Shown one piece after another: positions 1-25,900 of a stretch of 26,571 bases of DNA. Under the pieces are notes generated by a model. It had not been told where the DNA came from and did no database searches. It worked only from the letters and a program-made list of their open reading frames with translations. A program made the position numbers and the translations under genes. The stretch's first letter is position 1, and every line of letters starts with the position of its first letter. Source of the DNA: a virus; IMG/VR virus record IMGVR_UViG_3300030380_005221, positions 24,160 through 50,730 of that record; one strand, 5' to 3'.

Positions 1-698
1 TTCTGTAACCAACCACAATCCTTAAATTTCTGAACTTGATCCTTTGTCAGTTGTAGAATTTCTGATTGTTCCAGTTGAAAGTAACCAGAATTGAGTCCGT
101 CACGAAGTTTCACCTGCTCCAATATAAAGTCGTGATCTCCGAATAGAGAGGGCTGTTCGAAAAACACACGAATCCATTCTTCACCAGAGTCCACAGATAC
201 GACTGAATACTTTTTACTGTTCTTGATAGCAGATAGTGCGTAGTTGTAAAAAGAATCCCGTCTGAAGTGTCTGAGGGAACCCTTGTACACCTGATCGAGT
301 CTATCGGGATCTGCAATCAAATCGTAGATAGAGTACCCATTATCTTTATCGGTATAATTAATCCGAGTCCTGAACATATTCTCAAAGAATTGATCAACCT
401 CAGAACCGCCACGAGACTTATTGATAATCACATCTTTCGGCGTGTCACTCAATTCGTCATCGTGTTCAAATTCATGAACTGGATAGGTTTCTAGTTTGTT
501 CCAGTTTTCAATAATCTTGGACTCTGGTTTGCCAGTTCGAGGAGGGCAGTCATAGGTGTCCCAAGAGTGCCTCAGTACATCTCGCATTTTGCCAACCCAC
601 ACTCGAAACTCATCGGGTGTCATTTCGAGTAGATCCTCGAAACAGACATTCACCTCGTGATTAATTACATAATCATTTCGTTGGTACGGGACAGTCAT
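1..698 (-). CDS. Hypothetical phage protein, N-terminal part (runs off the left edge)
   Basis: An uninterrupted minus-strand frame runs from an ATG at 698 to the window edge, giving at least 232 residues without a stop. I do not recognise the family. The visible protein is soluble-looking and rich in charged and aromatic residues, with no signal peptide or membrane segment. Segments that look conserved include CPPRTGKPESKIIENW (about residues 51-66), FRTRINYTDKDNGYSIYDLI (about 109-128) and LRHFRRDSFYNYALSAI (about 142-158). A consensus host-type promoter ends 6 bases before the ATG, leaving no room for a Shine-Dalgarno site, so the message may be leaderless. An alternative ATG at 623 has a weak GAGGAT 11 bases upstream. 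The gene starts a new transcription unit downstream of the giant Cys-rich gene. That it is a gene is fairly certain; its function is unknown. Confidence 0.75.
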   Translation of the reverse strand, partial: MTVPYQRNDYVINHEVNVCFEDLLEMTPDEFRVWVGKMRDVLRHSWDTYDCPPRTGKPESKIIENWNKLETYPVHEFEHDDELSDTPKDVIINKSRGGSEVDQFFENMFRTRINYTDKDNGYSIYDLIADPDRLDQVYKGSLRHFRRDSFYNYALSAIKNSKKYSVVSVDSGEEWIRVFFEQPSLFGDHDFILEQVKLRDGLNSGYFQLEQSEILQLTKDQVQKFKDCGWLQ

Positions 699-704
699 GC
701 GGTA

Positions 705-732
705 ATTATATCACACATAAAAAATATGTCAA
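705..732 (-). promoter_or_regulatory. Sigma70-type consensus promoter for the leftmost gene
   Basis: On the minus strand TTGACA (727-732) is followed by a 16-base spacer (711-726) and TATAAT (705-710). The -10 is extended by TGA directly before it (711-713). All twelve hexamer bases match the consensus. Six bases (699-704) then separate the -10 from the ATG at 698, so the expected +1 coincides with the A of the start codon. It lies in the 40-base gap after the giant gene. Function is inferred from sequence only. Confidence 0.8.
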
Positions 733-738
733 GAAGAA

Positions 739-3700
739 TTAGGTAATGGTTATTCGTATTGTCCGTCCAACAGACATATCTTCTAATATGGCATGTAGAT
801 CGTCGGCTTTGAATGCACTACTTGTCTTTACATCTGGATCGGCGCTGGCCAAATACTTCCATATAACAATAAAACTAGATCCTCCTGTCAACTGTGTGGC
901 ACTTGCCGCAAAGAAATCTTTCGTTATACCATTAATATCTAGTGTAACCTTTCCACCATTATTTTTGAAATTTTCTGCATCCTCCGGGGAACCAAATGCA
1001 ATCCTTAACGCACTCGTATTGAAATCATTCCAAAATGTTTCTGAACCGGGCCCTAGTTGGATGTACGCTCCTCCGGTGTAGATATCGTATGGATAATTAT
1101 CAAAAGCACACCCATCTGTGCTTGATGTTATCCATCTATATCCTTCACCACCGAATAAATCGCCCTGATCATAGAAACCCGACTCACAAACACTCGGGAA
1201 TAGATCTTTACATGGGACATTAGGACAACTCCAATTGACACACTGCTCGGTTATTTCACTGCAAACTTTACCTAAAGGACACTCAATTTCACCACATAAC
1301 TCACCGCTACCTTCCGGGACACCTAATTTACTTTTACAACTAGACCAATCTAACCAGTTCTCATTAGTCTCGTCTATACACGGAGTCGCCTGGCCAATTT
1401 GCGGACAAGAGGGATATTCCTTTCGGAGAACAGTGGACATTTCCTCGGCGGCATCCGAGGAGATAGAACCAACCAAATTACTAATTGTGCAAAGACTCTC
1501 GGCAATAGAAACGCATTGGGAGTCCCATCGAGGAGTACAGTCTTGACCAAGGGGACATTCCGGCTGCTCTACACAACACGAGGGCCTCACATTACAAACT
1601 GCCTGTTCACATAGAGCAGCCAGATTAAGAGATTCACCTTGAGGATGATTAGTTGATGTTCCGAAACTATGCAAATCTCCTCCACAACCCGGATTATCGT
1701 TTTCTTTGAAACATGAACATATACAATTAACATCACAGTACTCAGGTTCATCTACGACGAATCCCGAAGCATCTGTACGTATTTCTCTATAATCACATGG
1801 ACTTGTATAGTCCAATGCTCCCCCATTAAGTTTACTGACACCATTGCACATCCGTGGATTACTTAAAGGATTTGATGCTATATCCCAACAACTAGCGGAA
1901 CCAAATCCTGAGTTAGATCTACCACAGTACGAATCTTTTGGTTCTGGTGGTGCAGGACAACATTTTGCTTCGTTTATATCAGAGGGAACACTACCGTTAT
2001 CGCACTGATTCTGGCTCGGACATGATGTACCAATTCCTTGGAACTGTGGAAATGATTGAGGGGAACACGGGGAACCGGGCCCCGGAGCACAATCTTCCGG
2101 AGCGATATCATTATGACACGAGCCATTTAAATCGGTAGGACCACAACAACAAGCACCTGTCTCCACACACCCACAGACTGGTCCGGCATTAGGACAAGCA
2201 TCATCACAAACATTCGCATCGTCATAATAACTCGTCCAAGTTCCCGTGCAATTAGCGAAAAGAACAAAGTCATCACATACGCCATCCACACAACATTTTC
2301 CGGGGATCTCATCACAGCAAGGAGCAAGACCCATATCGGTGTCATTATGATCGTCCGGAGCAGATGAACAAACACTACAATCATTAATATCATCATTCCA
2401 TTCTCCACCGAGAGTGGTAATACAGGTTTCCTCATCCTGTATACTACAGTCGCTATACGTTACTCCCCACGGCTGACCGTCACTCAATATTCCTATTGGA
2501 AGGAAACCACCCTGAACACAACACCTTCCTACGGCAGTACCACAGAATGTATCATCCGGTCCCTGAATGGATCCTATATTATAAATTTTGGTAATTTCTG
2601 CTCCACCGGGAATGGTATACCCACCCGATGTATCATTTTTAAGAGTTACTTGCAATCCAATACCACAATTTTCAATCACTCCATCAGATGAAATTGTATA
2701 GAAATTGTCGTCTGATATGATATTACCGTCTTTGTCCGTCCATTTGTAACTATCAGTGGCACGTGGTTGTCCTAGTTGCGGAAGGGGATCCTTCAAATTA
2801 CCCGGATACAAAAAGAGATCTCCATAATTTAAAACAATCGGTGGATCGATAGCGGGACCGGAAGGAAAGAATTTAAAGTCCGGATAAAGAGTGTTTATGT
2901 CATCCGGAAAAACAGGAGGAATTCCGTGAATATAATCATTCGTAGCGTGAAAATTAATATTATCAGATAACGACTCTACTGGTTGATCCTTGTCATCCAA
3001 TAACTCAGAATCAGCGGTAACTTCAAAATTCAGTTCAAATCCAGGCAAGGCGCTTGCGGGGAGACTCTCAGTTGTCACTGGTACTGTAAGTGTTTTTGTA
3101 TCTCCACCAGAAAAATCGTATGTAAAATCAGAGAGTGGATCTGTTAGGTAAAAACGATAAGAAACATTTTTCACATTCTTTTCAGTTGTAGAAACCGTGA
3201 CTACTGATCCAATCCCAATAGGATTTGTAGAAGGATCATATAGATTACCATCGACAGTGAAAGAATCTATTGATAATACAGGAACACCAAAGGGACAACA
3301 ATCAGATGGATCATCTGCGGGATTTTCATTCGGATCAGTGCAGTCAGGACAAGTCGGAGAGGAAGCATCATGATGATCGGGGCAGTCTGTTTCGAATTGA
3401 TTAGGAATACAAATACCATTGTCGCAACACCTACCAAATGCAGGCTCTTTATCATCGCAGCAACTCTCACTGTTATCCCCACTTCCACAATTTGGGCATG
3501 ATTCTCCAATTGTAAAAGTTTTAGTTCCTTCTAACGCATCATTAAGGGATGCAAGAGTGTCACAATCGTCACTAGTCACATTCTCTTCACAGAAACCCAA
3601 ACGGAAACCTACAGTTTCATTGTCTTCAGCATTAGCAGTTTTAAAGCAGCATCTACCAAGAGTAGGGCAGCAATTTGGATTGTTCGAAGCGGTATCTGGA

Positions 3701-6700
3701 TCACTACAAGTCAACACAAGACCGGAATCAGCAGATGATTGATTTGGATTATTTTGGGTCCATTCTTTATTTTCATATCCTTCATCAATCCTCCTTTGCT
3801 CACAATCTGCCTCAGTTATATCATAAGTAATGTCTCTTAAATCTCCACTGCTTCTCAAACAACATCGTCCTAAAGGATCACAACAGTCGTCGCCGTTTTC
3901 CTCTGGGACTTCACAATTTGGACAAGTACCAGCGTTTAAAAATTCTCCAACTTCAGGACTCGCTCCAGAATCACGGGCAGCAATACAATCCTCCAAGGTG
4001 AAGTTAATTTCACATACTCGATCTCCAGCAGAATCAATATAACAACAACGACCAGTCTGCACATCACAACATCTATCCTCAATTTCTCCTGTAACTGGAT
4101 CCACGGCAGAGAAACAACCGGGATCACATTCTCCACCAAGAGTCCATAAAGGCTCACCAGTTAGACTTCCTTCTGGAGCAGAAACTTCATCATAGGATTG
4201 GGCACAAATACCAAAGTCAGGATTAACTCTATTACACTCAGCATAAGTTAAGTCATCTACACAATTGCCCATGTTATTTGTTTTTGTACAACAACACTTT
4301 CCTGTTTTTATCTGTGGACAACAACAAGTTTCGAAAGTTGGATTATTTGGATCACACCCATCAGGATTATCTCCGCACGAAGTAGGACACGATGAAGCAT
4401 CCCCTTGATAATATCCTCCGAGATTTGCACATTCCAAAGGAGTTTGCTGGTCACATTTATTTCCTACGATTCCCTCTGCTGGAATGTCGTTATCAGGATC
4501 AGGTCTACAGCAAGCACCTCTAACCGTACCACAGTTTTCATTAGGAGTCGGATTGAATACATCACCTATCTTGTAGCGTTTAGATAGTGTTACGGTAGAA
4601 GGAGCATTCTCGGTAAAATTACTAAATGTCAAATTAACCCACAATTCACACCCGTCTATAGCCTCGTTGGGTATTGTATAAATCGCCGGCGTCCCGGCCC
4701 CAGAGGCAAGTACATCTTCATTCAATTGTTGAAATTCCCATGCAATAGAAATCTCAGGATCTACTTCTGGTTTGCTTATCGAGAGTCCAACAAGATCGCC
4801 TGGATTCAATGAACCGGAGCCGTTATCCCACATCGCACCCGGAATGACTATGATTGTAGCAGGTATATCGTCCGGCATACCAAAAGACTCGCCATCAATA
4901 AACCTCGAAGCGAAAGCGGTAGATGTCTCTCCGTCAGCATCATCAGCAGAAACCGTACATTTCAGTTCTTTTCCTGCATCGGAAAGAGAGCCGGCCGTAA
5001 AGTAAGGAATCTGATACTCATTGGATAAAGTGTCCTGACGTAATTCACCATCAACTTCAAACTTATATAAAGGCTGGGTGGCATTATTGTTAACATCAAC
5101 ATCAATCGTCAGTGTCTCTCCAACTTTTGGAGGATCCGAATCAAAAGTAAAATCTCCTATGACAACATTTGCATTACAACAGTCCGGATCATTTTCTGTT
5201 TCACAGTCCGGACACACTAACCCGTTTCCGAACGTCTGGTTAGATTGTTGACAATCATCATACCATACATTATCTTCACAACTATTCACACCACCATTTT
5301 CTGCACAACATCTCCCCTTACTAGTATCACAGCAATAATCATTGGTATCATTGTCTCCGGGACAACCAGCACCAAAGCGATCGCCGGGACAGGCAAGATT
5401 ACCACCCGGAGTCCACGCAGAAAACGGAATAGAGGCTGTAGGAATTTGCTGTAAACATTCAAATTCAGTAATCGCTTCTACACAATTACCCTCAGAGAAC
5501 TGACCAGTAGCATCAGAAACTTTCCAACAACACCTACCAAGAGGAGCACAGCAATTTGGATTTGCCGAAGCGGTATCTGGATCACTGCAATCTAGTTCAA
5601 GACCGGAATCAGCAGATGATTGATTTGGATTATTTTGGGTCCATTCTTTATTTTCCCATCCTTCATCAATCTTCTTTTGCTCACAATTTGCCTCAGTTAT
5701 ATCGTAAGTAATATCTCGTAAGTCGCCACTTCTTAAACAACAGCGTCCTAGAGGATCGCAACAAGGAAGGCCTGAATTTAAGGTTGGATCTGAACAATCA
5801 ACACAAGTTCCATCTGGAGTCCATTGGAAATTAGTAGGATCACTTTCCTGAAATTGAGGACAGTCAAATGATTCTAGACCAGATTCACAATAAGCACCAA
5901 CGGGTCTCCCATTTTCATTCTCCAAAACTACCTCACAGCACCTACCAGTTAATGGAGCGCAGCAGGGGGGATTTGGTGTCCCCACAACACATTCTGGACA
6001 TTCCTCCCCATACGTCCAAGTTATCTGACCAAGACTGTCGGTGGATCCACAATTTGCAAATCTAGGATCCGTGGTAACACACTCTTCGGCAGTCACATCA
6101 GGAATACACAATCCAGTGTTATCAGTTTGAATGCAACAGCACCTACCAGTTCCAATTTCATCACAACATGGAGTTCCCACATTTCCATCACCGCATAACG
6201 GACACGGTGTGTTGGCAGTCCATTTACCTTGAGGTGTTAGTGCTAAACAATCTGCTTCTGTTTCCTGTGTACAGGATCCAAGGGTTATTCCAGTATTAGG
6301 ATCAAACCCACCAGTTACACAACAGGAACCCAAAGCAGCACCACATGGATTACCGGCCACAGGATCCTGAACACCCGCAAGTTCCTGATCAAAAGTTCTA
6401 GTGATAAATCCGTCACTTGTGCCGGGAATGTTGGGATTTTCGTTACTAACACTTATACTATTTAAAACAATTTTACAGTTAGAACCTGATTCATCAGAAC
6501 CAACCACATGTAAAACTGAGGATCCGGTGTATACATTTCCATTAATTATGGTTTCAATCGAGTTAACATCTGGATCACCGGAAGAAGTTAATAGTGAATT
6601 ATATACTACTCCAACTAGATCACCGGGATTAACAATTCCCCCAATAGGGGGTGCAATATCAGCAAAGGTAGTAATATCCGTTGGTATTTCTGGAATAGTA

Positions 6701-7035
6701 CCATAAACTACCCCCATTTCAATGGTTGTACTAACCGAACCTGCAACATTGGACGCAGTAACTATACAGGTTAGTACCTTTCCCGGAATCCCATCTCCCT
6801 CAACTATAGAATATGGGTTTCCACTATATTCAGAAACCCCATCTAAAAAATATTCATATGATATAGACTGAACCTCACCGGAGGTCACTACAACGGCTTC
6901 AACGGTAGATTCTGATACAGGAGGATTTAATGCTCCTCCAGCACCCGTTTCGTCGGGTGTTCCCACTGATCCATTCACTAAAAATTCAGAAGATACTATT
7001 GAAGGAGGATCTGTAGGATCGCAAATAAATACCAT
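739..7035 (-). CDS. Giant cysteine-rich modular protein, probably virion-surface or adhesin (2098 aa)
   Basis: I start this gene at the ATG at 7035, because GGAG lies 6 bases upstream and the preceding gene ends at 7037; the in-frame ATG at 7077 lies inside that gene and lacks such a site. Three super-repeats are visible, about residues 1-620, 620-1250 and 1250-1690. Each begins with two beta-rich, Ig-like stretches without paired cysteines and continues into a block of short modules of the type GRCC-x-C-x(n)-C-x(n)-W-x(n)-C-x-x-C. The part after about 1690 has other Cys motifs (CPLGQDC, CPLGKVC, and WDSQCVSIAESLC, which resembles Cys motifs of secreted bacterial proteins). A Cys-free C-terminal domain of about 130 residues closes the protein. 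No signal peptide or membrane segment is seen. The architecture suggests an extended structural or receptor-binding protein whose cysteines form disulfides or bind metal; that role is inference. No known tail-fibre family was recognised. Confidence 0.7.
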   Translation of the reverse strand: MVFICDPTDPPSIVSSEFLVNGSVGTPDETGAGGALNPPVSESTVEAVVVTSGEVQSISYEYFLDGVSEYSGNPYSIVEGDGIPGKVLTCIVTASNVAGSVSTTIEMGVVYGTIPEIPTDITTFADIAPPIGGIVNPGDLVGVVYNSLLTSSGDPDVNSIETIINGNVYTGSSVLHVVGSDESGSNCKIVLNSISVSNENPNIPGTSDGFITRTFDQELAGVQDPVAGNPCGAALGSCCVTGGFDPNTGITLGSCTQETEADCLALTPQGKWTANTPCPLCGDGNVGTPCCDEIGTGRCCCIQTDNTGLCIPDVTAEECVTTDPRFANCGSTDSLGQITWTYGEECPECVVGTPNPPCCAPLTGRCCEVVLENENGRPVGAYCESGLESFDCPQFQESDPTNFQWTPDGTCVDCSDPTLNSGLPCCDPLGRCCLRSGDLRDITYDITEANCEQKKIDEGWENKEWTQNNPNQSSADSGLELDCSDPDTASANPNCCAPLGRCCWKVSDATGQFSEGNCVEAITEFECLQQIPTASIPFSAWTPGGNLACPGDRFGAGCPGDNDTNDYCCDTSKGRCCAENGGVNSCEDNVWYDDCQQSNQTFGNGLVCPDCETENDPDCCNANVVIGDFTFDSDPPKVGETLTIDVDVNNNATQPLYKFEVDGELRQDTLSNEYQIPYFTAGSLSDAGKELKCTVSADDADGETSTAFASRFIDGESFGMPDDIPATIIVIPGAMWDNGSGSLNPGDLVGLSISKPEVDPEISIAWEFQQLNEDVLASGAGTPAIYTIPNEAIDGCELWVNLTFSNFTENAPSTVTLSKRYKIGDVFNPTPNENCGTVRGACCRPDPDNDIPAEGIVGNKCDQQTPLECANLGGYYQGDASSCPTSCGDNPDGCDPNNPTFETCCCPQIKTGKCCCTKTNNMGNCVDDLTYAECNRVNPDFGICAQSYDEVSAPEGSLTGEPLWTLGGECDPGCFSAVDPVTGEIEDRCCDVQTGRCCYIDSAGDRVCEINFTLEDCIAARDSGASPEVGEFLNAGTCPNCEVPEENGDDCCDPLGRCCLRSSGDLRDITYDITEADCEQRRIDEGYENKEWTQNNPNQSSADSGLVLTCSDPDTASNNPNCCPTLGRCCFKTANAEDNETVGFRLGFCEENVTSDDCDTLASLNDALEGTKTFTIGESCPNCGSGDNSESCCDDKEPAFGRCCDNGICIPNQFETDCPDHHDASSPTCPDCTDPNENPADDPSDCCPFGVPVLSIDSFTVDGNLYDPSTNPIGIGSVVTVSTTEKNVKNVSYRFYLTDPLSDFTYDFSGGDTKTLTVPVTTESLPASALPGFELNFEVTADSELLDDKDQPVESLSDNINFHATNDYIHGIPPVFPDDINTLYPDFKFFPSGPAIDPPIVLNYGDLFLYPGNLKDPLPQLGQPRATDSYKWTDKDGNIISDDNFYTISSDGVIENCGIGLQVTLKNDTSGGYTIPGGAEITKIYNIGSIQGPDDTFCGTAVGRCCVQGGFLPIGILSDGQPWGVTYSDCSIQDEETCITTLGGEWNDDINDCSVCSSAPDDHNDTDMGLAPCCDEIPGKCCVDGVCDDFVLFANCTGTWTSYYDDANVCDDACPNAGPVCGCVETGACCCGPTDLNGSCHNDIAPEDCAPGPGSPCSPQSFPQFQGIGTSCPSQNQCDNGSVPSDINEAKCCPAPPEPKDSYCGRSNSGFGSASCWDIASNPLSNPRMCNGVSKLNGGALDYTSPCDYREIRTDASGFVVDEPEYCDVNCICSCFKENDNPGCGGDLHSFGTSTNHPQGESLNLAALCEQAVCNVRPSCCVEQPECPLGQDCTPRWDSQCVSIAESLCTISNLVGSISSDAAEEMSTVLRKEYPSCPQIGQATPCIDETNENWLDWSSCKSKLGVPEGSGELCGEIECPLGKVCSEITEQCVNWSCPNVPCKDLFPSVCESGFYDQGDLFGGEGYRWITSSTDGCAFDNYPYDIYTGGAYIQLGPGSETFWNDFNTSALRIAFGSPEDAENFKNNGGKVTLDINGITKDFFAASATQLTGGSSFIVIWKYLASADPDVKTSSAFKADDLHAILEDMSVGRTIRITIT
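3653..3885 (-). repeat. Internal direct repeat, copy in super-repeat 2 of the giant gene
   Basis: This stretch and 5534-5763 are closely similar at DNA level, at a constant offset of 1881 bases for most of their length. The core around CAGCAGATGATTGATTTGG is identical in both. Both encode the module CCDPLGRCCLRS, a linker containing NKEWTQNNPNQSSADSGL, and the next GRCC. This copy has one extra codon (RSSGD against RSGD). Such DNA identity inside a protein-level repeat indicates recent duplication or gene conversion. Confidence 0.85.
5534..5763 (-). repeat. Internal direct repeat, copy in super-repeat 1 of the giant gene
   Basis: Partner of the repeat at 3653-3885, in the same orientation and reading frame. 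Most differences are third-position or conservative changes. It lacks one Ser codon relative to the other copy. The surrounding modules of the two super-repeats are much more diverged, so this module pair stands out. Confidence 0.85.
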
Positions 7036-7036
7036 A

Positions 7037-7804
7037 TCATGCTCCGACGTTCCAAAAAAGTGCGCCTGGAGATGCATAATTTAGCATAAATTCCCAAGCC
7101 TTTGCATCATATGTAGGTGCAGATGGAAATGGAGGCTTTACTTTTGTTTCTTTGTTGAATGGTATTTCGCATCTATACGTTTTTGCTCGTCCATAGTCGC
7201 CACTATGTCCCACACAGACGCAGTGAAAGGAGGCATTTGGCCACGCGAGTTGTAGTCCCCGCGTGAGTGTTCCTGATGATCCGACAGTCCAGACTTCATT
7301 TGGAGTAAAAGGTTGATTGCGAGCCACACGAATGATGCTAGATAGAACAGTATCATCATCAAATCCGATAGGCAAAAGTCTACGAGTTTTTGGATCTTCT
7401 TGGACATAATCTCTTGCTCTCTTTTCTGTTACAGATAGCATTCCATTCGGAACCCATCGCATATCAACCCCCGTATTTATGGCTTCAATTTGATATGGAT
7501 GCCTTTTTTCTACAGCACGATCTGCCATAAAAACAACTGCCGACTTATCATATTTCTCACATAAGTGACCCAATGATATTTGAGCATATCCAGTTGCAGG
7601 TGAACTTCCGTATACCCACTCCTTTATATTATCATCAGCACGAATTAAATAATCCGCAAATCTTATCTTGGAGCCTCCACCCAGAAGATCATCACGAACA
7701 ACCAGAAACCCGTCGTGCTCCTCTACGACGGGTTCTGGATTTGGATCTTCCCAATCTCCAATAAGAGAGAGGTAGTCATCTGATGTCATTTCAAATAAAC
7801 TCAC
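7037..7804 (-). CDS. Compact PLP-dependent enzyme-like protein (fold type II, ACC deaminase/cysteine synthase type)
   Basis: The 255-aa protein has the landmarks of fold-type-II pyridoxal-phosphate enzymes. RDDLLGGGSKIRFADYL (residues 37-53) resembles the GGNKLRKLEYL stretch of ACC deaminase-like enzymes and makes K46 the candidate Schiff-base lysine. YGSSPATGYAQISL (65-78) matches the substrate-carboxylate loop in position and type. GSSGTLTRG (175-183) is a candidate phosphate-binding glycine loop. At 255 residues it is shorter than typical family members (over 300), so it may be a minimal form. The start is a GTG in a GTGA overlap with the gp46 stop; an ATG at 7789 is an alternative. It sits 1 base before the giant Cys-rich gene. 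Substrate and reaction cannot be told; amino-acid metabolism, DNA base modification or a non-catalytic role are all open. The fold call is good, the function unknown. Confidence 0.65.
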   Translation of the reverse strand: MSLFEMTSDDYLSLIGDWEDPNPEPVVEEHDGFLVVRDDLLGGGSKIRFADYLIRADDNIKEWVYGSSPATGYAQISLGHLCEKYDKSAVVFMADRAVEKRHPYQIEAINTGVDMRWVPNGMLSVTEKRARDYVQEDPKTRRLLPIGFDDDTVLSSIIRVARNQPFTPNEVWTVGSSGTLTRGLQLAWPNASFHCVCVGHSGDYGRAKTYRCEIPFNKETKVKPPFPSAPTYDAKAWEFMLNYASPGALFWNVGA

Positions 7805-9544: not shown

Positions 9545-10276
9545 TCACGAAGTTTCCTTACTCCTATCACGGAACTGCTTTCTTTCCTCTGCCTTCTTCG
9601 CACAACTACCACAACCGCCTGGTTTAGCAGCACCGGGAGTGGACAAAACAAGACCAGATATATTCTGGAATTCTTCTGCCGAAATCCCAGAAGGTCCAAT
9701 TGCTTCTGGTGAAGGCACAGGAATTGTAATACTTTCTCCCTCTGCAATAGGTCGGAGGGCAAAGAAACGAATGGTTCTGGTTACTTCATCAAATTCGAAG
9801 TAAGCGTTCGGGGATTCGGCCGGACGATATGACATTGCATTACCGCGAGGAATGATTATGTGAGGTCCAAACTCTTCACAGCCGTGAGTGTTTTCATCAC
9901 AAGGAACAGTCCATAGTAAACGAACACCAATTTTGTCCTTTGTGCCCTTGATAAAATCATTAAGTCTAGACTCTAAGATCCAATAGTGACATTCTTCAAT
10001 AAGTCCACCACCGTTAATATCTTTAGTTGCCTTTACATCGAAAGTACCATCAATATTATTAATATATTGAGAATTACATTCAAACGATTCTTTCACTGGA
10101 ATAACCTTTGGTCTGTTTACATGAGTCATATGTGTATTATCTACCATTGTATCATATCGATACGCCCCAGAAGTTTTCCTTGCCCATTCACGAGGGTCAA
10201 AAACTTCCTGTACAGGCTTTACAGGCTTTACCGGCTCTGTAATATTTTCTTCTGTCTTTTCAACTGTGTCTGTCAT
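9545..10276 (-). CDS. Divergent SET-domain-like protein with a CxxC tail
   Basis: A 243-aa protein inserted between gp47 and gp46. After a Pro/Lys/Val-rich N-terminus, residues 79-99 (FDVKATKDINGGGLIEECHY) resemble the start of a SET domain, where a G-x-f-A-t-k-d-I-x-x-G-e-l-I-E pattern is usual. Residues 145-185 (GNAMSY, SPNAYFEFD, RTIRFFALRPIAEGESITI) resemble the end, where GN-x-x-x-NHSCxPN and alrdIxxGEEL are usual. The canonical Asn-His of NHSC and the C-terminal YxY tyrosine are not evident, so methyltransferase activity is doubtful. The tail has GGCGSCAKK (220-228), a possible metal-binding or redox CxxC. SET proteins usually methylate protein lysines; no substrate is indicated here. 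The start has GGAGAG 9 bases upstream and lies within the last codons of gp47 (17-base overlap), so the two are translationally linked. The SET call rests on motif pattern only. Confidence 0.55.
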   Translation of the reverse strand: MTDTVEKTEENITEPVKPVKPVQEVFDPREWARKTSGAYRYDTMVDNTHMTHVNRPKVIPVKESFECNSQYINNIDGTFDVKATKDINGGGLIEECHYWILESRLNDFIKGTKDKIGVRLLWTVPCDENTHGCEEFGPHIIIPRGNAMSYRPAESPNAYFEFDEVTRTIRFFALRPIAEGESITIPVPSPEAIGPSGISAEEFQNISGLVLSTPGAAKPGGCGSCAKKAEERKQFRDRSKETS

Positions 10277-11333
10277 CTGATAAACTCTCCATATACAAGG
10301 TTCTCATAATTTTTTTAAGTGCATCCAAATCAACATCATCCACATCCAAACTCTCCAATTCAGAGTTTATAATGGTTAATGTATCTTGTGCTAAATCTAC
10401 GTCTTCTTCATCATTAAAAATTTCTCTATAATCTTCTATCACCGAAACATCAGATACGTTTACTTCATACAATTTTTCAATCAATGAGTCAAATAAATGA
10501 TGCTTATCTCTATTCACTACAACTATTTTTACATACTTATCCCGAAAAGATTCGTCTATACTATTTATAAGAGATTCCGTATTTTCTTGATCAGTGTCAT
10601 TGTACTCTAACGTATAGAACATCCTATCTGTATTTGGAACAAATTTTAGTTCTCGGGTCGAGGTGTCTAATATATGAAACCCCCTCTGTTCGTGAATATC
10701 ACCAAAAGTTATTTCATACTGAGTTCCAAGATATACTACATTATTTTTAGAACTTTTACCATGAAAATGCCCAGACAAAACCATTTCGAATCTTTTTAAT
10801 GGAGCATCTGACATTCCTCCATCAAACTTAACGCCTTTCATTACTTCATAACCATTTAATTCAAAATGCCCCATGATAATTGGACACTTACAATTATTCA
10901 AAAACTCAATTGATTCGTCGTGGTTTTCTGCGTTTATCCAAGGAACAATACCTATACACAACCCGTCCATTTCTAAAACTTCGGGTTCATTATAAATTTT
11001 TATATTATCATACTTGTTACCAATGATTTCTGTGAGTGAGTTTATTTTATTGGTATTTTTATAATAAGTATCGTGATTACCCAGCAGTATATGAAGATTA
11101 ATTTTCTTCTCATCGAAAACATCTATGATCTGGGATCTAGTCTTGTTAAGAGTATTGAAATTTATAAACTTTCTTCTGTCGAAGAAATCGCCCAGATGTA
11201 TTACAGTGTCTATGTTATGTTCTTCACAATACGGAAAGAACTTGTCCTCAAAGAAAGATATAAAATGATCCAAAAATACTGGAGAATCATTTCTGGCACC
11301 GAAATGAGTGTCGTTAATTAAAGCGATTTTCAT
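10260..11333 (-). CDS. 47: gp47 recombination endonuclease subunit (Mre11-like nuclease)
   Basis: A 357-aa metallophosphoesterase, the nuclease partner of gp46. All five metal-binding motifs are present: DTHFG (D8, H10), GDFFDRR (D49), GNHD (N86, H87), GHFE (H156) and GHFHG (H189, H191). The C-terminal region is acidic (DVDDVDLDALKK) and probably contacts the gp46 coiled-coil base, as in Mre11-Rad50 complexes. Length matches T4 gp47 (about 340 aa). Its ATG overlaps the gp55 stop by 4 bases (ATGA), so it should be co-transcribed from the gp55 promoter. TATAAATA-like octamers inside this gene are probably chance AT-rich matches. Confidence 0.96.
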   Translation of the reverse strand: MKIALINDTHFGARNDSPVFLDHFISFFEDKFFPYCEEHNIDTVIHLGDFFDRRKFINFNTLNKTRSQIIDVFDEKKINLHILLGNHDTYYKNTNKINSLTEIIGNKYDNIKIYNEPEVLEMDGLCIGIVPWINAENHDESIEFLNNCKCPIIMGHFELNGYEVMKGVKFDGGMSDAPLKRFEMVLSGHFHGKSSKNNVVYLGTQYEITFGDIHEQRGFHILDTSTRELKFVPNTDRMFYTLEYNDTDQENTESLINSIDESFRDKYVKIVVVNRDKHHLFDSLIEKLYEVNVSDVSVIEDYREIFNDEEDVDLAQDTLTIINSELESLDVDDVDLDALKKIMRTLYMESLSDDRHS

Positions 11334-11836
11334 TTTGTCTTCTTTTTGTTACCCTTAAATTTTGTCAAGTCATTATCATTTAATTGAAAATGTTCTTTCA
11401 TGGCTTCTTTTTCACTATCTTTTTCAAAATAATTTTCTTTGAACCATTTATGTAAAGTTCCATCAATATCCTTTTCTTCAGCTAACTTATACTTAATATA
11501 AAGTTGTTTCTTCTCTTTTTCTATTCTTCGAAGAAAAGCAAAATATATTATTTGAGTGAAATATGAGAAAGGGTTTGATGATTTTTCTGGGTTAAAATTG
11601 TGAGCGTACAATATACAGTTTTCAATTGCATCTCCAATCATCTCATCTCTATATGGATACTTTATAAAGTTTCCTTTACGAGAAAGATTTTCTGCTATCT
11701 TAAGAAAACACTCTGCTATGTAATTCGTTAATGGAGGACGCTTTTCATCCATTTCGTTGGCTTCTTTTACAAGAACCAACCATTCGCTCATAGCCTTTAG
11801 GAATTCTTTATTATCTACATAATGGTTATCACTCAT
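11330..11836 (-). CDS. 55: gp55 late-transcription sigma factor
   Basis: A 168-aa protein matching the small T4 sigma factor gp55 (185 aa), which directs host RNA polymerase to TATAAATA late promoters together with the sliding clamp. Recognisable parts are the N-terminal helix with NYIAECFLKIAENLS, then RDEMIGDAIENCI (about residues 63-75) and NPFSYFTQIIYFAFLRRIEKE (about 87-107), the sigma region 2-like core that contacts the polymerase clamp and -10 DNA. The Lys-rich tail ends with DLTKF, possibly the clamp-contact tail; that is inference. It is the first gene of a unit running on into gp47. A host-type promoter ends 6 bases before its ATG, with no Shine-Dalgarno site, so it is predicted to be leaderless. 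Early host-sigma70 expression fits a gene whose product switches on late transcription, and two late promoter octamers are present in this window. Confidence 0.92.
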   Translation of the reverse strand: MSDNHYVDNKEFLKAMSEWLVLVKEANEMDEKRPPLTNYIAECFLKIAENLSRKGNFIKYPYRDEMIGDAIENCILYAHNFNPEKSSNPFSYFTQIIYFAFLRRIEKEKKQLYIKYKLAEEKDIDGTLHKWFKENYFEKDSEKEAMKEHFQLNDNDLTKFKGNKKKTK

Positions 11837-11842
11837 GCTAAT

Positions 11843-11870
11843 ATTTTATACTCGTATTTTATTTTGTCAA
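11843..11870 (-). promoter_or_regulatory. Sigma70-type promoter for gp55 and downstream genes
   Basis: On the minus strand TTGACA (11865-11870) is followed by 16 bases and TAAAAT (11843-11848), then 6 bases (ATTAGC) and the ATG of gp55 at 11836. Read as TATAAAAT (11843-11850) it also resembles a late octamer with one extra A, but the perfect -35 favours host sigma70. Spacing of -35, -10 and ATG is identical to the promoter at 705-732, and both begin CTTGACA and end GC-ATG. No Shine-Dalgarno precedes the ATG. Confidence 0.7.
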
Positions 11871-11887
11871 GTTTTTACTTGACAAAA
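11862..11887. repeat. Perfect 11-bp inverted repeat containing TTGACA in both arms
   Basis: TTTTGTCAAGT (11862-11872) and ACTTGACAAAA (11877-11887) are exact reverse complements around a 4-base TTTT loop. The left arm supplies the -35 of the gp55 promoter. The right arm supplies a -35 for a possible plus-strand promoter. Neither strand shows a proper T-tract after the stem, so an intrinsic terminator is less likely than an operator or a paired promoter element. Confidence 0.75.
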
Positions 11888-11907
11888 ATTAGGGGTGCGT
11901 TTAAAAT
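11879..11907 (+). promoter_or_regulatory. Possible divergent plus-strand promoter
   Basis: On the plus strand TTGACA (11879-11884), a 17-base spacer and TAAAAT (11902-11907) make a good sigma70-like promoter. A transcript would start near 11914 and run antisense to the Sm-like gene and uvsW. No convincing plus-strand gene follows, so it may be a by-product of the inverted repeat. It lies in the 122-base gap between gp55 and the Sm-like gene, which otherwise holds only the short tandem GGCCTAG repeat near 11941-11954. Confidence 0.3.
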
Positions 11908-12696: not shown

Positions 12697-14185
12697 CGAG
12701 AGGTCCTCCTAAGCGGATGTTAGAAATATCATAATCAAACTTCTCATTAGTATATATTTTGATTCTCTCCTCCAGATGATTCATCGTATGGTTTGTGTAC
12801 TTTTTATACGATAAATTATCTGATATGTCATAGACAATTGCTTTATTTTTACCCTCAGAAGTCCTTAAACCTCTTCCAATCGATTGGAGGACTCGAATTA
12901 CGGATTTGGACGGTGAAGCAAAGATAATGTTGTGAATATTGCGAATATTGATTCCCGTGGAACATGTACCATATGATGCCAGTAAAATGGATGTCTTATT
13001 TTTATCAACAACCTTACGAATCATCTCTCTTTCATCTACGTCAGTTTTACCATGAATCATGTATATGGGTCTGTCTGTGATCTGAGTTTCCATTAATTCA
13101 TTCAGAGGAATGCCATGCTTATTGACAAAATTGAAAAGTATCAAAGTATTTCCGTTTAACTTTTTTGCCAAATCTACTATAAACTGGTTTCTGTCCTTAT
13201 TCTGAACCAACCAATCTATCTCTTCCTGATACTTCTTTCTCTTCATTTCATTACAAGATTCTTCATTGTGTTTCAGGGTAAGGCAGTGAATTTTTAGTTT
13301 AGATAGAATTTTCTTTTTCATCAACTCTGTGGTTGATGTCACTTTGACCGCAGGACCAAATAGTCCTTCGATTACCAACTTGTGTGTTTTTGAGTCATCT
13401 AATGTTCCCGTTGTGCCAAATCGGTAGTATGCGTTCTTCATCTTTTCCATCAGCCCAGACAATGATTTGGCTTTGAATAAATGACACTCATCTCCAAACA
13501 CAGATTCGAATTGATCAAAGTATGATTCTGGAAGTGTATATAAACTCTGCCACGTTGAAATTACCACTCTTCTGTCTGTTTGTTTTTCCTGTCCAGAAAA
13601 TATGGTATGGATTTCGTCTGAAATATTGAACGAGTCATTTGACCCGTAGTCTTCGAAATCGGACCTCATTTGATTTACAAGATTAGTTGTGGGGACAACT
13701 ACTAAAATTTTACCCTCTGTACATCTAAGAAGATAGCGAACTAGGCAATAAATTATTAGAGACTTACCTGAACCCGTGGGAGATATGAGTAAAGTTCTTT
13801 TCTTTACCAGAGAATCAAGAAAAGCCTTTTTTTGGTGATCATGAATCTTTATGGGTTTACCATTGGCAGTTAGACTCAGTGTGTTTATGAAGTCCTCTGC
13901 ATCATCACATTGAGCCATTTCTTTTTCTTCTGTGAATGTGTATGAGTAATTTCTATCATCACAGAATTTTTGAATGTAATCTTTAAGTCCGACATATATT
14001 GTGCGATTGAATAAATTGAATAGTCTTATCTGACCATCCCAATATTTATTCTTAAATGCTGGGGTGTACTGATAATTCGGAACATAGAATGTGAAAAAAT
14101 CACTGAGTTCTTTTGCTATTGATTTTTCACTTTCTATTTTTAGATGTACGGCATCTATTTGTCGTATGATCAGATCACTCATCAT
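12671..14185 (-). CDS. uvsW: UvsW superfamily 2 helicase
   Basis: A 504-aa SF2 helicase matching T4 UvsW, an ATPase that unwinds R-loops and branched recombination intermediates and helps the switch from origin to recombination-dependent replication. Visible motifs are Walker A SPTGSGKS (residues 135-142), GKILVVVPTTNLVNQM, STWQSLY, the DECH box (232-235), TTGTLDD (258-264), ILFNFV, LASYGTCSTGINI and motif VI QSIGRGLR (434-441). The N-terminal 90 residues carry the UvsW DNA-binding pattern (FYVPNY, then KYWDGQIRLFN). I prefer the ATG at 14185, which overlaps the uvsY stop as ATGA. An in-frame ATG at 14233 adds 16 residues within uvsY and does not resemble the family N-terminus. An ATG at 14182 is also possible. 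Confidence 0.95.
   Translation of the reverse strand: MMSDLIIRQIDAVHLKIESEKSIAKELSDFFTFYVPNYQYTPAFKNKYWDGQIRLFNLFNRTIYVGLKDYIQKFCDDRNYSYTFTEEKEMAQCDDAEDFINTLSLTANGKPIKIHDHQKKAFLDSLVKKRTLLISPTGSGKSLIIYCLVRYLLRCTEGKILVVVPTTNLVNQMRSDFEDYGSNDSFNISDEIHTIFSGQEKQTDRRVVISTWQSLYTLPESYFDQFESVFGDECHLFKAKSLSGLMEKMKNAYYRFGTTGTLDDSKTHKLVIEGLFGPAVKVTSTTELMKKKILSKLKIHCLTLKHNEESCNEMKRKKYQEEIDWLVQNKDRNQFIVDLAKKLNGNTLILFNFVNKHGIPLNELMETQITDRPIYMIHGKTDVDEREMIRKVVDKNKTSILLASYGTCSTGINIRNIHNIIFASPSKSVIRVLQSIGRGLRTSEGKNKAIVYDISDNLSYKKYTNHTMNHLEERIKIYTNEKFDYDISNIRLGGPLDENNVQSH
12705..12710 (-). promoter_or_regulatory. Perfect Shine-Dalgarno AGGAGG inside the uvsW 3' end
   Basis: AGGAGG sits 8 bases before the ATG at 12696 and encodes part of the uvsW C-terminus (LGGP). 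It is among the strongest ribosome sites in the window and decides the start of the Sm-like gene. Confidence 0.85.
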
Positions 14186-14616
14186 TGTCCATTCGTAAAT
14201 TTCAGCCAGTCTATGGCAGAACGTATGTTCCACTGTCTATTGTTAATTACTTTTATGATTTCGTTTAGATAATCAACAATAGTTTCTTTATATTTCATAC
14301 GCATGTCAATTAATTGTAGATCCTCGTCGGAATCTAAAAATTTATCCAAATCCGTTTTCAGTATTGTAAGTTCGAATGGTTCCCAGTCCTCTTCTTCTAG
14401 TTCTTCCTGAGACATTTTACCTGTATAGTACAGCCACTTCTTTCTTCGAATCACCTTATACTCATGTTGAAGTTTAGTTAATCTAAGTTTTTCATCCATC
14501 AAAAAATTTAAGTATTTTGAATGGAGTTGAGGTGTTTTTAAAGATTCTGTGTCTAGTTGAGTTTCATCGAGTATAAGATCATTTTTTGCATAATTTTGAT
14601 AATCACTTAAGTTCAT
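14182..14616 (-). CDS. uvsY: UvsY recombination mediator
   Basis: A 144-aa protein, close to T4 UvsY (137 aa), which loads the recombinase UvsX on gp32-coated single-stranded DNA. The family pattern is visible: an N-terminal helix with DLILDETQLDTES, a basic stretch KVIRRKKWLYYTGKM (about residues 56-70) where T4 has its Lys/Arg-rich DNA-binding motif followed by YYSG, then DLDKFLDSDEDLQLIDMRM and a C-terminal helix IIKVINNRQWNIRSAIDWLKF. It lies directly before uvsW with a 4-base overlap, as expected of a recombination operon. The ribosome site is weak. UvsX itself is not in the window. Confidence 0.9.
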   Translation of the reverse strand: MNLSDYQNYAKNDLILDETQLDTESLKTPQLHSKYLNFLMDEKLRLTKLQHEYKVIRRKKWLYYTGKMSQEELEEEDWEPFELTILKTDLDKFLDSDEDLQLIDMRMKYKETIVDYLNEIIKVINNRQWNIRSAIDWLKFTNGQ

Positions 14617-14622
14617 TCACTG

Positions 14623-15207
14623 TTATCCCAATAGGTTATCACATAAGTTTCCATTTGCATTATATATTTCGAATCGAGTATAGTTAAAAGTTACATTAGA
14701 TATCAGAGGTGAGGATATTGGTTCTGCCGAAGTGAAATCCAATTCCCCTAGTGCTATCGGATATAGATCCTTGAAAACAATTCTGTATTGGGGTCTATAT
14801 GCACTGTTTGTTACTAGCAATGTTGCATCAGATGTTATAGCTTCTCTCTCAATTGTCGTATCATTCTTGAACATACCAATAGAAGTCATCCAATTATATA
14901 ATTCGATGTAAGATAAGAATCTCTCATCTAGAACAAATCCTACTTGAAGAGGTAAAAAGTCAAAACTACCTCCTGCCAATTTTATATCCAAATTCAGTGT
15001 TGTTGGTTGAACAAGTTCACCAAATCTAAATGGTGGCACTAATACGCTTCTTACAAATCTTTCAAAATTTGGTATTCTTTGGATGGTGAATCTAAAGTAA
15101 TTACGATTTAGAAGATTATCATCCTGTGGTAATCCCGCAGTTCCTCCGGATGTTATACCGTAGGATCTGTAGGTAATGTCTGGGATTGAAGCAGTTTCTC
15201 CGGCCAT
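14623..15207 (-). CDS. 3: Tail-tube-fold protein, likely gp3-type tail tube terminator
   Basis: A 194-aa protein with the tube-protein pattern of T4 gp3/gp19/gp54: NYFRFTIQRIPNFERFV (about residues 35-51), a middle strand with LDIKLAGGSFDFLPLQVGFV, then LDERFLSYIELYNWMTSIG (about 93-111), and a C-terminal IVFKDLYPIALGELDF and NVTFNYTRFEIY. In T4-like marine phages the gene after 23 is commonly annotated as gp3, which caps the tail tube and stabilises the sheath; position and the xDExxxSYxxxYxWM motif support that. A second tail-tube paralogue or a gp54-like initiator remains possible. The ATG lies only about 14 bases after the terminator T-tract that ends the gp23 unit, and no Shine-Dalgarno is visible. 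Expression may depend on read-through or an unrecognised promoter. Confidence 0.65.
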   Translation of the reverse strand: MAGETASIPDITYRSYGITSGGTAGLPQDDNLLNRNYFRFTIQRIPNFERFVRSVLVPPFRFGELVQPTTLNLDIKLAGGSFDFLPLQVGFVLDERFLSYIELYNWMTSIGMFKNDTTIEREAITSDATLLVTNSAYRPQYRIVFKDLYPIALGELDFTSAEPISSPLISNVTFNYTRFEIYNANGNLCDNLLG

Positions 15208-15221
15208 ACTACTATGTATAT

Positions 15222-21611: not shown

Positions 21612-22925
21612 TCAGCCTAATTCTGCACCTTCACCTTTGTTGGTGAAGCGAAGACGAATAAAGTTAATGGACTTGGTTGGTTTAATAAACACATCTGCTA
21701 CGAATTGATTGGAATCAATAATATCTGAGGTATTGTTGGTTTCGTCACAGATGACTCTGAAGTCGGTAATTCCTCTTTGTCCTCGAATTGTCTCAAGAAG
21801 AGGAGTGACTGCGTTAATAAACAAGTTACGGGTAATTTCGTCATTTTGTTCGAAAAGAAGACTTCGTGCAGATGTTCCGATTACTCTCTTGAGGTAAAGG
21901 AACAAACGAGCAACATTAATTCTACTTAATGTGCTGTTTGGTTTATTTGTTTTGTCTCCAAACAAGAGGGTTCCTTCACCGGGGAAAGTAACAATTGGGT
22001 TTACCTTATTATCGTAACAAATGTCTTGCTCTCCGTCTGTTAGATCTTTTGCTAATCTAACAACATCTAAAATTCTACCTCGAACCTCACCACCCGGTGA
22101 GAACCAAGGATTGGCAACTCTATCTGTTCTCGCAAGACACCCAGCAACATCAGCAGAAAGTGGTGTCTGAATCAAGTTTGTGTCCGTGACCACTGATGAT
22201 GATAATCTACTAATGTCCACATGGCTCTTTTCACCAAACACAGATACAATATTTTCACTTGCACTACCTACTGGTGAGTTTACGCTTGTGTCAATACCAG
22301 TCCCGGAGGGAACGTGACATACACCAATACAGTCTCCTCTATTATCAGTAATATTCTTGACTATGGTATTGGAAGCTGATCCCGAAACACCAAACACAGA
22401 ATCCAAAGCAATAGATTTGTTCTGAAGAGTAGTAGTGGCACTAGTGGTATTGGTTACTGTTCCAGTTGCACCAACAATTGCAATTCCTCCATAAAGAAGG
22501 TAATTGTGAACTGACCACCATTCGTCTGTCCACTCTCCGGTTGGTCCGTTTGGCCATCTTTGGTATCCGAATGTTGATCCAAAGACCTGAACATTACCTC
22601 CGGTTGCATCTCTATTTACTTGTTCTGGATCTAGTCTCTGTCCGGAGAATGTGCTTCCCGGTGTGAAGTGATAAAATGGAAGATCGCCACCCGCAGTGCT
22701 TCCCCCGCCATAGTTTGAGAGAGGCTCTGGACTTTTTAGTCGGCCAAACCAGTCATCGGTTCCCTCGACACGCATGAAACCTTGCTGTGTTTCTGTGGTA
22801 TTTCCGAGTGCGAAAAGTAAACCTTCACTTGAAGGAAATCCTGCAACATGTGCTCCGCCAGACTCGGTTCCGCTGATAACAAAAGATTGATCGTTAACTA
22901 TTACTGTAACATTAGGTCGTGCCAT
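21612..22925 (-). CDS. 18: Short tail sheath protein (gp18 paralogue)
   Basis: A 437-aa contractile sheath protein. The N-terminus MARPNV and TESGGAHVAGF, the centre YQRWPNGPTGEWTDEWW, NYLLYGG and DNRGDCIGV, and the C-terminal half (NPWFSPGGEVRG, FGDKTN, RINVARLFLYLKR, LFEQND, GITDFRVICDETNNT, DSNQFVADVFIKP) are all shared with the 1154-aa protein encoded just upstream. It is much shorter than T4 gp18 (659 aa) and apparently keeps only the conserved core used for inter-subunit contacts, without large surface domains. AGGAG precedes the ATG and a late-type promoter lies in the 35-base gap upstream, so it can be made separately from the giant sheath gene. Which of the two forms the bulk of the sheath is not known. 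Confidence 0.9.
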   Translation of the reverse strand: MARPNVTVIVNDQSFVISGTESGGAHVAGFPSSEGLLFALGNTTETQQGFMRVEGTDDWFGRLKSPEPLSNYGGGSTAGGDLPFYHFTPGSTFSGQRLDPEQVNRDATGGNVQVFGSTFGYQRWPNGPTGEWTDEWWSVHNYLLYGGIAIVGATGTVTNTTSATTTLQNKSIALDSVFGVSGSASNTIVKNITDNRGDCIGVCHVPSGTGIDTSVNSPVGSASENIVSVFGEKSHVDISRLSSSVVTDTNLIQTPLSADVAGCLARTDRVANPWFSPGGEVRGRILDVVRLAKDLTDGEQDICYDNKVNPIVTFPGEGTLLFGDKTNKPNSTLSRINVARLFLYLKRVIGTSARSLLFEQNDEITRNLFINAVTPLLETIRGQRGITDFRVICDETNNTSDIIDSNQFVADVFIKPTKSINFIRLRFTNKGEGAELG

Positions 22926-22960: not shown

Positions 22961-25900
22961 TTACTCTAATTCAAAAGAAGTTCCAACATTGGTTAATCGA
23001 ATCTTTATAAAGTTGATTGTTTTTACTGGTTTCACGAAAACATCTACCACAAATTGGTTAGAATCTACAATATCAGGAGTATTATTAGTTTCATCACAGA
23101 TTACTCTAAATTCACTAATCCCTCTGGATCCCACAACAGTTTCCAAGAATGGTGTTGCTGAATTAATGAATAATTCTCTTGATTTGGCATCATTTTGCTC
23201 GAATAAAAATCTTCTTGAAAGAGGTTCAAGTTTCTTTTTCAGATATATGAATAAGTTACTAACATTCACTCTGGAAAATGTGCTAGTAGATGGAGCAAGA
23301 GTTTTATCACCAAACAATCTTAGTGATCCGTCACTATTCCTCACAAAGTTGACTTTTGCATCATACAGTGTATCTTGCTGTCCATCTGTTAATGTGTATC
23401 TTTCGCTAATTATGTCTTTAACTGTGGATACTGATCGATTTGCAGGAGAGAACCACGGTTGTAGATCTCTGAATTGTCTTGCAAACATACCACCCACATC
23501 AGAAGTCAGTGGAATCTCCACTGCATTGCTTAATTGATTTACTTCATCTTGGGTGTTTAACACTTTATTAGTTGATTGTGAGAACTTTTCTCCAAACACA
23601 GCAAATTCAAATTTATCTGAAGTTGATGAGAATATGTTATCTAACGTATAATCTTCAATGTCGAATTGTGCATCTGAAGGTGCGAAAGCAGCAGTAGGAA
23701 TTCCGGGGACTATATCAACTTCTGCTACTAGGTATATTCCATCACCACCAAATCCATCTCCAGTATATCCAGATTCGGCTGAGTGCCCTGCATAGAATAG
23801 ATTTTCATATGAAATGCCAGGATTACCAACCTTTCCGAAGGTTCCCGGAAGTGTTGCTCCCACTCCATCATTGAGTAAGGTGTTTGCTGGGAAAATGTTA
23901 ATACTGCTGTTTCTCAGCCTATTTGCGATATTGCTTAAAGCTATAGGAGTATCATCAATACTACTCGAATCGTAATCCTCTTGATAATAATCTCTATACT
24001 TGACAAGATTAACATCATTTTCTGCATCCCACCTTCTCATAAATGGGATGCTGACCTGAGCAAGGTTCTGGAATCCTTCTGTTTGTGGTTCTGCAAGATA
24101 AAAATAATTAGATGTATCTCTCTTAAGAGGGAAATTACCGGGACCAACAGCAGCCTCACTGTTGAATGCATCATTTACCACCAATGGATAGAAAACAAAT
24201 GATCTAGTTGGTAAAACTACACTGGCAACGGATTGTCTATCATTATAAGTTTTATCTTCTGCCACAGTATTCAAATATTTATCATGGAACAAACCAAGAG
24301 TTGATCCGGGAACTGCTGGAGTTCCTATGGTTTCTCCAAATATATTTACCAAATTCTTCATTATCATTTTTGGATAAGGTTCGGACCACCCAATATATGC
24401 ATTATATGTACTTCCGGATGCTGTTACCCCTCTTCTTGTTATACCGGGGACGCTAGTTTCCACACAAATATCTGGAGTTGCACCTACCAGATTGAATGTG
24501 TAAAGCATCTCGGGCAGATTTGCACAAGTGCATCCCCAGAAGTCTAGAGGTTTTTTGCCTTGTGAATTCGCAACATCCAAAGACGCACCAGTGATACCAA
24601 AAACATTATATAGTTGTTTCGTGGCGTGTGCTTGGGTATCATAAGATGAACCGGGAGATAACGGGTTGGAGATATTTCCTTCTTTTATTCTTTGCTTTGT
24701 GTAAGCAGCGTGAAGTTTCGCATTCGGGAATGTACCATTTGTGCCATATAAATTATCCAGTATATCAAAATCTGGATTTAGAGTTTGTCTCATATCAATC
24801 AATGATGTTCTTGCTTCTGAATTAGAAATTCTAGGGAATTCAGCAAGACCATCATAAGCATCTTCGGGTGCTCCTGTGAAAATTCTTTGACCAGATAAAG
24901 TGGGATCTGGAATGTGCTCAAACGAACGAGATCCTCCACCCGCGCCGCCTCCGAATGCCAACGCTGTTGAAGCGGATGTATCTGATTTGTTCACCGGATC
25001 ACTGCCATCCGCGAGGTTGGCCGGTTCCGGGAAAGTGTATGTGAACGGATCCATCCAGTTTGCAGGAACCGCCAGATGGAAAAAGTTCTGATAAGAAAAT
25101 AAGACGTTTAACGGCGCCGAGGGAGTTCCGTTTGCTGGAAATGGCACTATATTTGGTTCAGTCTTTAATATTTTGTCCATAAATCTATCTCTGAGATTTA
25201 CCATTCCGTCTATGATTAGAATGTCTCCAAGACTAGATCTAACATGTGTATTTTGATATATTGTAACTCCAGAAGATCCACTTAATTGATTTTTCCATGC
25301 CCGTGCCTCTGCTTCTGTTCTTCCTACGTTACTACCTTGCGGGCCCGGGATTTTACCCAAGACTCGACCAGGTACATCCGGTGATTCGAACCTCAAAAGA
25401 CCATTTGGTCCGACTGCATCTGTTGTCAACCCCAATGTCACTCCCACACCTATGGCGGCCGCCGTGTTCAAATCAGCAGTCCATCCTCTAGTTCCAAATG
25501 AATGGTCCATTTCATGAAGAACACGGTATCTTTCAAAATTAACCACATCAGTGGTGGTGCCGGCAGTTGGGCCCGGTTTATCCTTTCTCATTACAACCGA
25601 GTACACCAGTTTTCCGTGGTCGTACTGATATACACTTCCGCTATTACCAAAGAAGGCCTTATCAAAAGTGAATCTTGATATATGCTGATTTGATCTTGCA
25701 GCATATCCGGGATACGACCAAGTTCCTCCTCGGAAAAAATCGTTGGACGCTGGAATTGATGGTTCTGTATGGGTATCGCTTCCTGTTCTTTCAATGATAC
25801 CGGCTTGGTTTTCAGAGGGAACTGAAGTTATTGCTATACAATCACCCCGGACATCTACAATACCTCTGACATCGTTATTTTTACTGAAAAATGGAGAAAG

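Follow-up and report, generated by a model that had tools for sequence, protein, structure and literature searches.

A sigma70-type promoter directly before the start codon of a phage gp55 gene and a probable leaderless layout in non-cyanobacterial marine T4-like phages

In the viral DNA analysed here (a stretch of 26,571 nucleotides, hereafter the window, which belongs to a viral contig of 68,147 bases), the gene for the late sigma factor gp55 is preceded by a sigma70-type promoter so near to the start codon that the predicted mRNA begins at the AUG, which leaves no space for a ribosome-binding site. Probably, this promoter gives rise to a leaderless gp55 mRNA, and the same layout is widespread among non-cyanobacterial marine T4-like phages. 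The layout is enriched, is restricted to ATG starts, recurs on the gp55 tree and is absent in outgroups. The proposed mechanism has four elements: (i) a host-sigma70-type promoter would start the gp55 transcript at the A of its start codon, yielding a leaderless mRNA; (ii) the sigma70-type promoters of the group put their -10 box 6 nt before the ATG; (iii) the gp55-dependent late promoters of the group put the box ATAAATA 5 nt before the ATG; and (iv) ribosomes, probably 70S, would begin translation at the 5'-terminal AUG with no Shine-Dalgarno sequence. The gp55 region contains the following features (positions are those of the window):

11330 to 11836, minus strand: gp55, T4-type late sigma factor, 168 aa (PHROG 234, E 7e-55), without Shine-Dalgarno
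11837 to 11842, minus strand: ATTAGC, between the -10 box and the ATG, as read in the sequence
11843 to 11848, minus strand: -10 box TAAAAT of the gp55 promoter, after a 16-base spacer; its last T is 6 bases from the ATG
11865 to 11870, minus strand: -35 box TTGACA of the gp55 promoter, as read in the sequence
11879 to 11907, plus strand: divergent promoter TTGACA-N17-TAAAAT, back to back with the gp55 promoter

The minus strand from 11870 to 11834 reads TTGACA AAATAAAATACGAGTA TAAAAT ATTAGC ATG, with CTTGACA at -35. This is exactly the layout described in the original prediction: CTTGACA, a 16-base spacer, TAAAAT, 6 bases ending in GC, and ATG. Judged as a sigma70 promoter, it has 6/6 matches at -35, 5/6 at -10 and a spacer of 16, and its sequence fits the proposed reading as a host promoter (TTGACA/TANAAT). 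The -10 box stands at the same position in relatives L007, L008 and L021. As expected of a leaderless gene, gp55 combines (i) a promoter at a distance (d) of 6 between box and start codon; (ii) an ATG start; and (iii) no Shine-Dalgarno. Because the clade as a whole shows a peak at d=6 and a pyrimidine is found at -1, the predicted +1 of the promoter is the A at 11836, the first base of the ATG. A T4 late promoter was also considered for this site and rejected, since the site reads TATAAAAT, not TATAAATA, and its -35 box is perfect.

The window holds a second promoter of the same geometry:

3 to 698, minus strand: start of an N6/N4 DNA methyltransferase gene (PF01555; 524 aa in the contig, extending beyond the window)
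705 to 732, minus strand: promoter TTGACA-N16-TATAAT of the methyltransferase gene, 6 bases (TACCGC, 699-704) before the ATG at 698

Here, the minus strand from 732 to 696 reads TTGACA TATTTTTTATGTGTGA TATAAT TACCGC ATG, again with CTTGACA at -35. As had been claimed, both promoters have the same spacing (a 16-base spacer and 6 bases ending in GC), and no Shine-Dalgarno precedes either gene. The companion claim that most neighbouring genes do possess one was generous: some 4-base anti-Shine-Dalgarno match is found for 13 of 20 window genes, but at usable spacing for about 9-10.

The argument that coincidence is unlikely holds well. The pattern TTGACA-N15-18-TANAAT occurs three times in the window against 0.19 expected, the third occurrence being the divergent plus-strand site at 11879-11907; when followed by N5-8-ATG, it occurs exactly twice in the whole contig of 68,147 bases, where 0.08 occurrences would be expected, and two were not reached in any of 200 simulations. 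The proposed scan for promoters near ATGs, applied to the contig and its relatives, revealed enrichment over expectation and shuffles. Chance resemblance in A/T-rich DNA could be invoked on the grounds that the window holds just two strict cases, but with 0.08 expected and the layout recurring in many relatives it is scarcely conceivable: it is refuted for gp55, and could apply only to the methyltransferase promoter. The latter is conserved in one of 14 relatives (L386 only), which counts against a wide distribution of the layout and suggests that this promoter is probably a local gain. The total of two strict sigma70 cases in the window phage counts in the same direction and, since just two genes fit the strict pattern, the class is not a large one in this genome. 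A 2112-aa reading frame (739-7077, minus strand), flanked by the methyltransferase gene and a PHROG 7093 gene, looks like an insertion because, in several relatives, the methyltransferase gene directly follows sequence resembling that upstream of the frame.

For a broader view, gp55 relatives were taken from viral contigs with four queries and clustered at 90% protein identity, which left 100 clusters; the sigma70-type promoter model was that of E. coli, which may not fit the phages' own hosts. The best upstream promoter had its -10 box 5-7 nt from the gp55 ATG in 17 of the 100 clusters, against 0.56 expected from shuffles. Such recurrence among relatives points to a functional layout. Other preferred distances were 9-11 nt in some clusters and 20-23 nt, the latter often with a Shine-Dalgarno, while in cyanophage-type clusters the promoter lay roughly 20-47 nt from the ATG. 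A Shine-Dalgarno was present in 1 of the 17 leaderless-type clusters versus 43 of the 83 others. Because the leaderless state needs 5-9 changes on the gp55 tree, many of whose forks are weakly supported, the layout has apparently come and gone repeatedly, with a promoter retained throughout. In the clade L009-L030, without leaderless gp55, a 71-aa frame precedes gp55 and has its own promoter 7 nt before its ATG; this frame (L320:13618-13830, with orthologues in L309, L315 and L321) has no PHROG match. The control genes of the same loci showed a peak of their own at 5-7 nt, mainly from one gene, uvsY, which has its -10 box at this distance in 21 of 42 clusters and is the commonest gene with leaderless geometry in the group. 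The uvsY of the window is not leaderless in layout, its start lying 6 nt after the preceding gene:

14182 to 14616, minus strand: uvsY (PHROG 231)

The divergent promoter is more conserved than the gp55 promoter itself. Its pattern (TTGACA-N16-18-TANAAT) is found in 78 of the 100 gp55 clusters versus 2.85 expected, cyanophages included, and it can be seen upstream of gp55 in L008, L021, L040, L065, L089-L092 and others. When 28 sequences were aligned, an invariant TGT appeared at about +1, followed by purine-rich sequence; RNAalifold returned no consensus structure for the start of the divergent transcript. RNA from this promoter would run antisense to the end of the gene upstream, and one may guess at an antisense RNA or at a primer RNA for an origin. 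Furthermore, the two back-to-back -35 boxes form an inverted repeat, TTTTGTCAAG-N6-CTTGACAAAA (11862-11871 and 11878-11887), with similar repeats in several relatives (L008, L029, L065, L124), which might be an operator or possibly reflects simply the pairing of promoters.

An unbiased scan of 1.16 Mb (relatives, the methylophage Melnitz and the window contig), in which promoter-like sites were related to ATG frames of at least 60 aa, gave peaks at d=6 (n=25) and d=7 (n=18), with 0-9 sites at other distances. In uncultured contigs, d=6 sites precede 19 different proteins besides gp55 and uvsY; genes at d=6 or 7 include, for instance, dUTPases, an exonuclease-family protein and a dehydrogenase-family protein. 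Record by record, an early excess stands out in several contigs and in Pelagibacter phage Mosig; T4, Syn9, P-SSM2 and Melnitz show none. An ORF-aware scan was needed because simply counting TATAAT-N6-ATG in each record gave too much noise to tell the phages apart. Since a 400-kb stretch of a SAR11 genome showed no early peak, it can be suggested that the layout is not simply copied from a SAR11 type of host; the host of the window phage may differ.

Late promoters present a parallel case. The T4 late box TATAAATA spans -13 to -6 (PMC1524935), so that ATAAATA-N5-ATG predicts a leaderless start, and the relatives show a sharp ATAAATA peak exactly 5 nt before the ATG. There are 8 sites at d=5 in HTVC008M (p 4e-10), 6 in Mosig (p 6e-7) and 3 in Melnitz, compared with 0 in T4, 0 in Syn9 and 1 in P-SSM2. 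A separate count of the forward versus the reversed pattern gave 9 versus 1 in HTVC008M, 8 versus 0 in Mosig and 4 versus 0 in Melnitz, and 10 versus 7 in the cyanophage records in all. In the annotated stretch of HTVC008M, 6/6 sites coincide with annotated CDS starts, namely those of a 2OG-Fe(II) oxygenase, CsgF, tail tube cap, baseplate wedge, tape measure and DNA end protector; the tail tube gene of Mosig likewise has the late box 5 nt before its start. Melnitz, whose late peak is weak and which has no early peak, counts against a wide distribution. In one tail-tube-like gene family, the late box is often located directly behind an intrinsic terminator. A tail-tube-like gene is also present in the window:

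14623 to 15207, minus strand: tail-tube-like gene (PHROG 45)
15213 to 15220, minus strand: TATACATA, probably a variant of the late promoter; it lies behind a terminator hairpin, and 5 bases (GTAGT) separate it from the ATG of the preceding entry

In this gene, TATACATA occupies the -13 to -6 position of TATAAATA, and its orthologues carry ATAAATA or ATACATA (ATAAATA-N5-ATG); it is probably a late gene with the leaderless layout and a variant late box. The other late-type boxes of the window phage are leadered, several of them with a Shine-Dalgarno.

The original prediction had envisaged a class of early genes with start-proximal host promoters whose mode of translation might differ from that of late genes. 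The type of promoter suggests that the genes may be early ones. A recurring class is indeed apparent in gp55, in uvsY and in the d=6 peak, but it is not confined to early genes, for late genes share the layout, including annotated structural genes of HTVC008M. That the layout should belong to early genes only, with early and late translation modes differing, would agree with the window contig, whose ATAAATA sites before an ATG are leadered (for example at d=25 and 29, with Shine-Dalgarno) and whose early-type cases are leaderless; however, the peak of late boxes that relatives show at d=5, which is strong in HTVC008M and Mosig, and the probable late layout of the window gene 14623-15207 make this very improbable.

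The strongest test required an in-frame stop upstream and covered 1.4 Mb of related non-cyanobacterial phage DNA. For the late box, there were 44 ATG starts at d=5, 3 at d=4 and 6 at d=6, with 0 GTG and 0 TTG; for the early promoter, there were 21 ATG starts at d=6, 1 at d=5 and 5 at d=7, with 0 GTG and 1 TTG. Both peaks are nearly one base wide and almost purely ATG, and T4, Syn9 and P-SSM2 lack them. Some sites are orthologous; with each distinct protein counted once, the early d=6 class still has 21 members against 3.4 expected, and the late d=5 class 22 against 1.7. Neither tight gene packing nor A/T-richness would produce such peaks. The offset between them (6 versus 5) is one base, as is that between the box ends, at -7 for the sigma70 type and at -6 for the late type (PMC1524935). 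A pyrimidine, expected in front of a transcription start at A, occupies -1 in 25/27 early and 39/45 late sites versus about half in controls (p 1.4e-5 and 7e-7, respectively). Because the one-base offset matches the box ends and a pyrimidine precedes the ATG, the A of the AUG is the predicted +1.

Two other readings of this geometry have to be weighed. If the promoter were real but transcription started a few bases off, the messages would carry leaders of 1-5 nt and be nearly leaderless; early sites also exist at d=7 and d=9, and in bacteria the start of transcription is variable within a base or two. Peaks almost one base wide, with a pyrimidine in front, argue against such leaders, which are therefore unlikely. 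Alternatively, the hexamer could be no promoter but an A/U-rich ribosome-binding region on a longer message initiated upstream: the boxes are A/T-rich and near the start, and the window genes are co-directional, which would allow read-through from upstream. This is decidedly improbable, given that (i) TTGACA at 16-18 spacing goes with the early cases; (ii) early and late boxes peak at distances that differ as their +1 does; (iii) late cases often lie right behind intrinsic terminators; and (iv) the peaks are missing in T4 and cyanophages. Transcription from the A of the start codon is the preferred reading.

As for the remaining content, the T4-type genes on one strand of the contig include gp46/47, helicase, uvsY, portal, capsid and tail genes. 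An Rfam search of the window and ten loci matched nothing, and a tRNA search found none. Two tail-sheath-like proteins adjoin each other (21612-22925 and 22961-26425, minus strand); the second has 1154 aa, with the sheath-family match confined to its C-terminal part. Between the gp46- and gp47-like genes, the product of 9545-10276 (minus strand) has a weak SET-domain match (PF00856, E 0.00076, under the curated cut-off) and no PHROG match.

SAR11 and other streamlined marine bacteria have extremely abundant phages, whose promoters have so far been hard to find. The rule proposed here (sigma70 box 6 nt and ATAAATA 5 nt before the ATG) provides exact predicted 5' ends for dozens of genes and aids start-codon calls. 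It also suggests that a T4-type late sigma factor may routinely yield leaderless messages, and provides a natural setting for studying the conditions that favour leaderless translation. A bolder and rather doubtful extension is that the early and late programmes run largely on leaderless mRNAs and that the infected cell is shifted to 70S/leaderless initiation; if true, this shift would let phage messages escape host Shine-Dalgarno competition or defences aimed at normal initiation.

Judging by the open-licence literature, a phage group that routinely makes leaderless messages with two sigma factors appears to be new: leaderless mRNAs are not described there in T4-like, cyano- or pelagiphages, nor is the leaderless layout described in HTVC008M, Mosig and Melnitz. 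These three (PMC9004378), which also show the late peak, are the nearest isolates by the gene order uvsY, uvsW, PHROG 471, gp55, gp47. Late-promoter detection failed in pelagimyophages (PMC7029224), and the leaderless layout may help to explain this failure.

Leaderless mRNAs are known, the classic case being lambda cI from PRM (PMC9031893; PMC3160421). The genes described here resemble cI in their predicted 5'-terminal AUG, their lack of a Shine-Dalgarno and a -10 box lying roughly one helical turn upstream of the start codon. But while cI is a single gene of a temperate phage, here many genes and two promoter types are involved, in lytic-type T4-like phages whose leaderless 5' ends are predicted from sequence. 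A second parallel is found in the TA-led or '-10 adjacent to ORF' genes of Deinococcus-Thermus and Actinobacteria (PMC3160421, PMC12340547), where the start codon follows a few bases after a TANNNT box that is likewise read as a promoter for leaderless transcripts; those genes are cellular, mostly high-GC and often without a -35 box, whereas the phages studied here are A/T-rich and have full TTGACA boxes. Finally, the T4 late promoters (PMC1524935, PMC2988020) share the same box, an encoded gp55 homologue and late-type genes downstream. In T4, however, late boxes precede leaders (0/63 sites at d=5 and 26 at d=13-29), while in pelagimyophages and their relatives the commonest late-box distance is 5, for which no leader is predicted.
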